Assembly: GCA_029265875.1 (NCBI GenBank)
Contig: JAJUGS010000009.1
Span: 1 to 34,065, forward strand
Reading direction: 5' to 3'
DNA from: Prolixibacteraceae bacterium
GTDB lineage: Bacteria > Bacteroidota > Bacteroidia > Bacteroidales > Prolixibacteraceae
Length of the DNA: 34,065 nucleotides
Shown here: in pieces, positions 14,324-17,171 of the stretch
Layout: the number at the start of each line of letters is the position of its first letter
Position numbering within the stretch: the stretch's first letter is position 1
The notes under the pieces: model-generated
What the model was told of the DNA's origin: nothing
Seen by the model: the letters and a program-made list of their open reading frames with translations, nothing else
Databases searched by the model: none
Program-made: the position numbers and the translations under genes

Positions 14324-15199
14324 TTAAAAATCGGTGGCCTTGCCAGCTGCGAGGTTGGCAAAAAGCGTGTTTTGCGGAAAACGCCGGTTCAGTGTCTGGA
14401 AATGAATTTTTCCCTTTTGCGGTTCTTTCTCAATTTTGGTGTAAATGCGCCCCAGAAAATAGTGTGCCTCCGACGAAACTATCCAATCGCTGTCGGCAGC
14501 CAGTTGATGCAGCTTTTTTAAACAGGCCTGTTTTTCTGCCTCATCCCCGAAAACCGAACCGGCTTCGTTACTGTATTGCAGCAGCAAAACAAACACCGAA
14601 AGCAATTTCCGCTGGTTGTCCGGCAGAAGCACCGGGGTTTTCTGCACTACTTCCAGTTGGTCTTCCACTTCGCCTTTCAGAAAAAACGCTTTCGCATAAT
14701 TTTTCCGTTTTACTTCGAAACGCATTTTGTACGAAAGCCAGATGAGCCGGTTGATTTCATCGTAAGCTGAATTTTTGTTTTGTTTTGAAAACCAGTTCAG
14801 CGTGGTACTCAGCTTTTCTTCATCGGATTCCGTTTTGCTGATGCTGTATTTCCACCAAAAAAGGTCGAGTTTTAAAACCTGGTAATAAAAAGAATGGTTT
14901 TGAAAGTCATCGCTTCCAAGCATTTTCTCTGCTTCATTAAAACGAGTATTGTAAATGAGTGTGAAAACCTGTATAACTTGCGAGTCGGGCTGAGCATTCA
15001 AAGAAGATTTATTGTGCACAACGAAAGCTTCATCAATGCTGTCATTTCGACGAGTGTGCGAGGAGAAATCTCCTCCAACAGAAAGATCTCTCCTATCGTC
15101 GGGATGACAACACAAGAGAAACTTGTCATTGAATGCCAAAACATTGAAAGACAAAAAATGGGCGAATAAGAGGAATATTGAAATAAGGATATTTTTCAA
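14324..15199 (-). CDS. hypothetical secreted protein, possibly helical/TPR-like
   Basis: Signal peptide 'MKNILISIFLLFAHFLSFNVLA'; helical repeat-like body; palindromic element in frame near the N-terminus. Confidence 0.65.
   Translation of the reverse strand: MKNILISIFLLFAHFLSFNVLAFNDKFLLCCHPDDRRDLSVGGDFSSHTRRNDSIDEAFVVHNKSSLNAQPDSQVIQVFTLIYNTRFNEAEKMLGSDDFQNHSFYYQVLKLDLFWWKYSISKTESDEEKLSTTLNWFSKQNKNSAYDEINRLIWLSYKMRFEVKRKNYAKAFFLKGEVEDQLEVVQKTPVLLPDNQRKLLSVFVLLLQYSNEAGSVFGDEAEKQACLKKLHQLAADSDWIVSSEAHYFLGRIYTKIEKEPQKGKIHFQTLNRRFPQNTLFANLAAGKATDF
15040..15109. repeat. 70-bp palindromic MITE/REP-like element inside a coding sequence
   Basis: TGTCATTTCGACGA ... TCGTCGGGATGACA: 14-bp terminal inverted repeats with 2 mismatches. 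Confidence 0.85.
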
Positions 15200-15648
15200 T
15201 TGTGTTGAGTTTTGTAAACCATTCCAACATGCGGGATTCCGTCTTCAAGGTACATTTCTGTCACCACTTCAAAACCCAGGTCTTCGTAAAAACGCTGCAA
15301 ATATTGCTGGGCACTGATTTTAATTTTTTCTGCTTTCCAGTTTATAATACAGTAATTAACAGCAGCGTTCATCAGTTCTTTGCCAAGCCCTGTCCCGCGT
15401 TTTTCTTTTTTCACCACCACCCTGCCGATGGAAAAATCGGCAAAACGGGTTCCGGATTGCAACAAACGGGCTGTGGCCACAATTTCACCATTTTCGGTAT
15501 AAAAAACATGCACGGCTTTTTTGTCGAAATCATCAAGGTCGTTGTATACACATTTCTGTTCAACCACAAAAATTTCGGCCCTGAGTTTTAGCAAATCGTA
15601 TAACTCGTTTACCGACAGCTCCTGAAAGGTTTTGAAAATGAATGACAT
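15196..15648 (-). CDS. GNAT family N-acetyltransferase (ElaA-like)
   Basis: 'LRAEIFVVEQKCVYNDLDDFDKKAVHV', 'IGRVVVKKEKRGTGLGKELMN'. Confidence 0.92.
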   Translation of the reverse strand: MSFIFKTFQELSVNELYDLLKLRAEIFVVEQKCVYNDLDDFDKKAVHVFYTENGEIVATARLLQSGTRFADFSIGRVVVKKEKRGTGLGKELMNAAVNYCIINWKAEKIKISAQQYLQRFYEDLGFEVVTEMYLEDGIPHVGMVYKTQHN

Positions 15649-15815: not shown

Positions 15816-17171
15816 TTATAAAAATATATCTACTACTAAAATCAGTGCAAGTCCGGCAACAGCGATGATGGTTTCCATTACGGTCCACGACTGCAACGTT
15901 TGTTTTTCCGACATGCCAAGGTATTTCCCCACCAACCAGAAACCGCTGTCGTTTACATGCGAAGCGATGGTGGCACCCGAAGCAATCGCCAATACAATCA
16001 GCGCCAGCCGCGGTTCGGAATACTGAAAAGTTTCGAGCGCCGGAGCCAGAATTCCCGCAGCGGTTATCATCGCCACGGTTGCAGAACCCTGTGCCAGACG
16101 TACCACTGCCGCCAGCAACCAGGCCAGCACAATGGGCGGCAGTGCTGAACCAGCCATCGATTCAGCCATGATTTTGCCGATTCCGCTGTCAACCAAAACC
16201 TGTTTTAAAACACCGCCTGCACCGGTAATCAAAATGATAATTCCGGCCGGAGCGAGTGATTTGTTACTTAATTCGAGAATTTTGGCTTTGCCCATTCAGC
16301 GTTTCAAACAGAAGAACATGGCCAGCAATGTGGCAATTATCAGTGCCGAGAACGGGTGCCCCAAAAATTCAACCATCTCTGTGAGCATCGATTTTTCGAT
16401 AATTCCTTTTTGCACAATAATTCCGGTCACTGTATTCAAAAGAATCAGAAACAGCGGCACCGAAATCAGGAAGGCAATGGTGCCAAACGGTGGCAGGTTA
16501 TTTTTATCGTAATCACCATTTTCGGTCTGAAAAAATTCGGCGGGTGGCGCGATAAAAATTTTTTTCGAAATGTATTTTCCCCAAATTGGTCCGGCAATTA
16601 CCGCCACCGGAAAACCAATGATAATGCCCAGAAAAATCACCCACCCGAGTGGAACTTTAATGATGTCGGCCACAGCAACCGGCCCGGGTGTGGGCGGCAC
16701 AAAAGCATGGGTAACTGCTAATCCGGCCAGCAGCGGGATGGCGTAATACAAAAGTGATTTTTTTGAATCGCGGGCTAGTGCGTAAATTATCGGGACAAGA
16801 ATAATAAACCCTACATCGAGGAAAATTGGTATTGCCACCAAAAAACCGGTGATTGTCATTGCCCAGGAAGCTTTGCTATCGCCAAACTTTTTCAGCAGGT
16901 AGCGCGCCAGCGATTCGGCACCGCCCGAACTTTCGAGCATTTGGCCGAAAATGGCGCCAAGTCCAACCACCGTTGCCACAAAGCCCAGTGTTCCGGCCAT
17001 GCCATTCTGAATGGCTTTGCTGATTTCTCCCAGTGGCATTCTGGTTACAATTCCCACATAAACCGCCGTTAAAAGCAAGGTGATAAAGGCGTTCACCTTT
17101 AATTTCAGTACCATAAAAAGTAGAATCGCTACCGCTGAAACAACAATAAATAGGAGATATGGCGTTGACAT
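15816..17171 (-). pseudogene. GntP family permease interrupted by in-frame TGA (16296-16298)
   Basis: ORFs 16296-17171 and 15816-16295 are contiguous in one frame; junction '...MFFCLKR*MGKAKILELSNKSLAPAGIIILITGAGG' matches uninterrupted GntP architecture. Confidence 0.88.

Follow-up and report, generated by a model that had tools for sequence, protein, structure and literature searches.

In-frame insertion of a TGTC-tagged REP mosaic as the probable origin of an N-terminal extension in a Prolixibacteraceae protein

Comparison of a 291-codon gene with its homologues and with the dispersed repeats of its own genome reveals a palindromic element lying within the reading frame. The best explanation, in which we have considerable confidence, is the in-frame insertion of a non-autonomous dimer of TGTC-tagged REPs into the linker of an exported protein. 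The gene (minus strand, 14324–15199; 291 aa, TTG start) is located in the window, by which we mean the whole 34,065 bp stretch of DNA analyzed here, and it runs without a stop codon or frameshift through all of its codons. The palindrome, a 70-mer of the form TGTCATTTCGACGA...TCGTCGGGATGACA, occupies positions 15040–15109 within this gene and is translated, stop-free, as '...CCHPDDRRDLSVGGDFSSHTRRNDS...'. A first-pass annotation had described it as captured in frame directly behind a signal peptide; the sequence agrees, the palindrome is not a chance arrangement given its many genomic matches, and the homologues lack the element at the corresponding position behind their putative signal peptides.

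Distribution and structure of the repeat

A 90 bp query around the palindrome has 37 matches in its own genome (4.26 Mb in 420 contigs), as expected of a dispersed repeat, and genus-wide there are matches in 27 of 37 genomes, this one included. The strict unit motif (TGTCATTTCGA, 4–20 bases, GAGAAATCT) is widespread in Bacteroidota, with occurrences in 73 of the 297 genomes and 29 of the 141 genera sampled, and the reversed-pattern control gave no match in any of the genomes listed; the statement in the first-pass annotation that such TGTCATTTCGA elements are common in Bacteroidota is thus borne out. Inverted pairs make up most of the copies. Plasmid records contain no match to the core, and an Rfam search returned nothing across the whole window.

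The core of the element (15040–15109; identity to other copies of at most 90%) consists of two hairpins placed head to head, and these two units differ from each other. The left REP unit (15040–15072, plus strand), recognized by reading the sequence and the aligned copies, consists of TGTC and an ATTTC...GAAAT hairpin with tandem G.A mismatches, and the right REP unit (15084–15109, minus strand), recognized by covariation of its stem across the family, consists of TGTC and an ATCCC...GAGAT hairpin. The TGTC tags lie unpaired on the outer side of each unit, at both outer ends of the core, and are near-invariant among copies. The loops are TGTG in the left unit and GATA in the right, with loops of 3 nt in some other copies, and the tail of the REP unit is unpaired and CTC/CTT-like rather than CCA. 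As coding-strand RNA the 70-mer folds with −36.9 kcal/mol (z −5.7), and none of 200 shuffles does as well.

The right unit is the more informative of the two. Among 25 copies (16 distinct) its stem takes the forms ATTTC/GAAAT, ATCTC/GAGAT and ACCTC/GAGGT, 97.9% of the cells are paired, and its covariation score (0.365 versus 0.223) lies above that of every slid version and of each of 500 shuffles. The conserved structure is therefore the unit itself and not just the large palindrome. The stem has five pairs, with A-T first in most rows, two tandem mismatches and one C-G pair; it covers eight positions when G.A counts as a pair, and DNA energy rules predict the hairpin poorly. The tandem G.A mismatches between the 5 bp outer stem and the inner C-G pair are found family-wide (for example at 15084–15109, minus strand), and as DNA they could form sheared G.A pairs that standard DNA folding misses.

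Extent of the insert and the protein that carries it

The first-pass annotation had put the gain at about 23 residues from a 70 bp element, but the repeat homology spans about 150 bp and the actual gain is about 48 residues. When 18 copies are aligned with 200 bp of flank, many share sequence well past the 70-mer, and a profile built from 14 genomic copies, the window copy being left out, matches 14981–15132 (100.5 bits, E 1e-30; envelope 14978–15150). To the left of the core is a module (14984–15039, plus strand) at most 71% identical to the left module of other copies, and a left-module profile scores 8.9 bits against the left flank alone, where the best of 200 shuffles reaches 3.6. To the right, local alignment to other copies defines a module (15110–15132, plus strand) that ends in TGTCATTG; its mean local alignment score of 20.5 is reached by 5 of 1,000 shuffles and 3 of 1,000 random genomic stretches. 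The right flank past 15132 has no similarity signal to other copies, and a right end placed beyond it, taking in the signal-peptidase region, was rejected on that ground. The whole insert, identified by the profile match and by its absence from homologues, is thus a mosaic of REP units at about 14984–15132 (plus strand), its left boundary being uncertain by some 6 bp and its right boundary by some 10 bp; it amounts to about 150 bp or 48 codons, corresponding to residues ~23–72. The ends were compared through homologues of at most 66% identity, which places base-exact ends and any target-site duplication beyond their resolution. About half of the long copies in the genome (including L012, L014, L018, L019, L020, L022, L023 and L029) carry an extra 20 nt, AATTGAAAATCAGCGGAGCT, within the left REP unit, and the window copy is without it.

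The insert separates two parts of the host protein. Residues 1–22 (MKNILISIFLLFAHFLSFNVLA; 15134–15199, minus strand) are a putative signal peptide, whose start and hydrophobic segment align with MNQIILSILLFINLFLP of the nearest relative, G022, and residues 72–291 (14327–14986, minus strand) form an all-helical mature domain, with homology from about residue 72 onward in 27 congeneric or same-order genomes. Residues 26–70 include, for example, the peptide DLSVGGDFSSHTR. An AlphaFold2 model run on the alignment has a mean pLDDT of 80.7, with values below 50 at residues 19–70 and mostly above 85 in the helical domain from residue 72 on. Pfam and NCBIfam searches of the protein found no model, and a PDB search gave a single weak match (E 0.016).

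The alignment of 27 homologues, one from each of these genomes, locates the insert in the linker. The number of residues before the F79 column is 28–35 (median 31) in the 26 more distant homologues, which do not have the repeat, 52 in G022 and 78 in the window protein, whose excess of about 47 residues matches the 149 bp of repeat homology. The G022 protein is 66% identical over its full length and about 74% from residue 74, and its gene has the same signal segment, the same order of GNAT gene, host gene and zinc-ribbon gene, and a TTG start at the identical overlap with the GNAT stop. Scanned forward and in reverse, the G022 linker does not contain the element; one weak repeat match elsewhere in G022 was dismissed as a coding coincidence in another gene. 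This synteny together with the homologue comparison indicates that the start is conserved, that the insert is real rather than a contig join, and that the linker tolerates changes in length. At the linker, G022 itself has some 20 additional residues of unrelated sequence (L042, G022:C91, ~2142–2230). From these sequences the linker position appears to have been lengthened on two occasions or in two steps, and part of the length gain in the window protein could be older than the repeat.

Two neighboring genes deserve mention. The gene upstream of the host gene encodes a GNAT acetyltransferase (15196–15648, minus strand), an arrangement that is the same in G022, and in both genomes the TTG start of the host gene overlaps the GNAT TGA stop (15196–15199 in the window), which suggests translational coupling. 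Further along, a gntP-type permease gene (15816–17171, minus strand) is split by one in-frame TGA with an ATG directly after it; the position is glycine in G022, which reads through, and the explanation is a nonsense mutation, possible reinitiation or a base error.

Proposed origin and alternative explanations

The sequence of events that we favor is as follows. A TGTC-tagged REP dimer, within a mosaic of about 150 bp, would have been inserted in the short linker that joins the signal peptide to the helical domain, moved in trans by a transposase of the HUH/Y1 type or by some other enzyme. The gene would still be read through, and the exported protein would begin with about 48 disordered, repeat-encoded residues, presumably at little or no cost. 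Selection would have removed most insertions into genes, leaving the intergenic copies and rare ones that preserve the frame. The pre-insertion site in this scheme is reconstructed from homologues of at most 66% identity.

The frame was kept because the net length fits and because the element often has an antisense frame that is stop-free. Nevertheless, of the 84 frames of 14 other long copies only 8 stay open along the whole element, so an insertion at random seldom preserves a frame; given a length condition of 1/3, the share of random in-gene insertions expected to stay in frame is only a few per cent. Among 35 copies examined in this one genome, with ORFs judged by eye where unannotated, there is no further convincing insertion within a gene, which would fit the loss of disruptive insertions. 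Nor is there another in-gene capture at about 30 congener loci; in both sets the other spanning ORFs are antisense or short, or the element lies upstream of the likely start. One copy (L011, G000:C255, element at 1501–1589) lies, as judged by eye, between a cobalamin riboswitch-like leader and a gene resembling those for BtuF-type binding proteins, and an in-frame ATG from the element's end is a possible start codon for that gene.

The strongest competitor, although an unlikely one, is that the insertion recently inactivated the gene and that the frame remains open by luck. The in-frame TGA in gntP gives this some footing, as a possible sign of decaying genes on this contig, or else of base errors in it. 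Against it are the 291 codons free of stops and frameshifts, and the position of the insert, which coincides with the protein's only variable and unstructured region. Furthermore, comparison of 215 codons of the mature domain with G022 by the Nei-Gojobori method gives pS 0.61, pN 0.15 and dN/dS 0.13, a value that is the mean of both lineages, with dS close to saturation, and in which a very recent loss would not show. These substitutions point to purifying selection on the mature domain. The simplest reading is that the gene encodes a working protein with a disordered extension, predicted to be translated and exported.

A second alternative, raised in the first-pass annotation, is that the start is misannotated, the true start being downstream at an in-frame GTG (residue 61) or TTG (residue 67) and the element forming a 5′ leader. 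Both codons are present, many N-terminal REPs are in fact extragenic owing to misannotated starts (Di Nocera et al., PMC3733652), and three other copies in this genome have an open frame and yet lie upstream of probable true starts. However, every homologue has its own signal-like hydrophobic segment at the N-terminus, ahead of the insertion point, none starts downstream of the element, and the segment in the window shares with G022 its frame, its TTG and its overlap with the GNAT stop. A downstream start would also leave an unexported protein in an otherwise exported family, and we consider this reading very improbable.

Our preferred reading is insertion into a tolerant linker. The first-pass annotation had offered the element as a candidate for repeat-driven protein evolution, which holds only insofar as new sequence has been added; there is no sign of an adaptive benefit. 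The REP-encoded tail or the hairpin at the 5′ end of the mRNA could tune export or expression, and the strength of that hairpin, the placement of the repeat segment at what becomes the mature N-terminus, and the report that a Yersinia signal peptide is partly MITE-made (PMC2229807) all lend themselves to this idea. But the segment is not conserved beyond its own genome, the hairpin owes its strength to the repeat itself, and no independent constraint on the segment was found. It is doubtful in the extreme that the segment is now a functional part of the exported protein, either as a new mature N-terminus or as an expression-setting hairpin; were it so, a REP would have created functional coding sequence in Bacteroidota. 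Finally, a chimera assembled at a repeat is the least credible explanation of all, for although the repeat is multicopy and the genome is in 420 contigs, the element lies in the middle of a 34 kb contig and the gene start, mature domain and neighboring genes on both sides of it are syntenic with G022.

Comparison with known repeat systems

In-frame capture of palindromic repeats is already known elsewhere, from the Rickettsia RPEs and from intragenic REPs, and the present gene is a further example. Like REPIN/RAYT systems, the element is an inverted pair of REP hairpins, non-autonomous and dispersed, in a genome that encodes Y1 transposases, but its tag is TGTC rather than GTAG and no RAYT gene is flanked by these REPs. 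There are 15 Y1_Tnp matches in the genome (L031–L040 and L107–L111 among them), most of the NQKEHH type; none of the 15 loci has flanking copies of the element, and a link to any one of these transposases was therefore rejected. Several of these IS200/RAYT-like Y1 loci have other short palindromic repeats on their flanks, which bear no relation to the element.

The closest known system is that of the CGTC-tagged REPs (Di Nocera et al. 2013, PMC3733652), which occur in Bacteroidetes, with Gramella forsetii listed as a carrier, and in other phyla, mostly as head-to-head dimers and often with CGTC changed to TGTC. Some of these lie inside ORFs and add 20–30 residues, and they have no dedicated transposase. 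The features in common are the unpaired terminal tag (CGTC, TGTC or CCTC in theirs, TGTC here), the loop (4–5 nt in theirs, 4 nt in both units here), the short hairpins, the head-to-head heterodimers, the intergenic dispersal and the absence of the element from the flanks of transposase genes. The fit is not strict, as the stem in the window is broken by tandem G.A where theirs is 8–9 bp and starts A-T, T-A, the tail is not CCA where theirs mostly is, and the window copy sits in a mosaic of ~150–200 bp that adds about 48 residues.

The behavior of the element, though not its membership, is shared with the Rickettsia RPEs, palindromic elements of 100–150 bp whose in-frame insertion into protein genes is tolerated (Ogata et al. 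2000, reviewed in PMC2229807). In both, the gene stays open after an in-frame insertion. RPE capture is frequent, with 19 reading frames recorded, and the product of one RPE-bearing enzyme that was tested is active (PMC2229807); here the lineage and sequence are different, and there is one convincing case among the 35 copies read. With the present gene, the well-documented in-frame capture of repeats is clearly exemplified in a Bacteroidota lineage of the free-living type as well, and the homologues reveal at which point of the protein added sequence is tolerated. The gene is also a natural test case for the amount of unselected sequence that an exported protein can accommodate, and repeat-made N-terminal extensions of this kind will be encountered in Bacteroidota by gene-calling programs and by family models.
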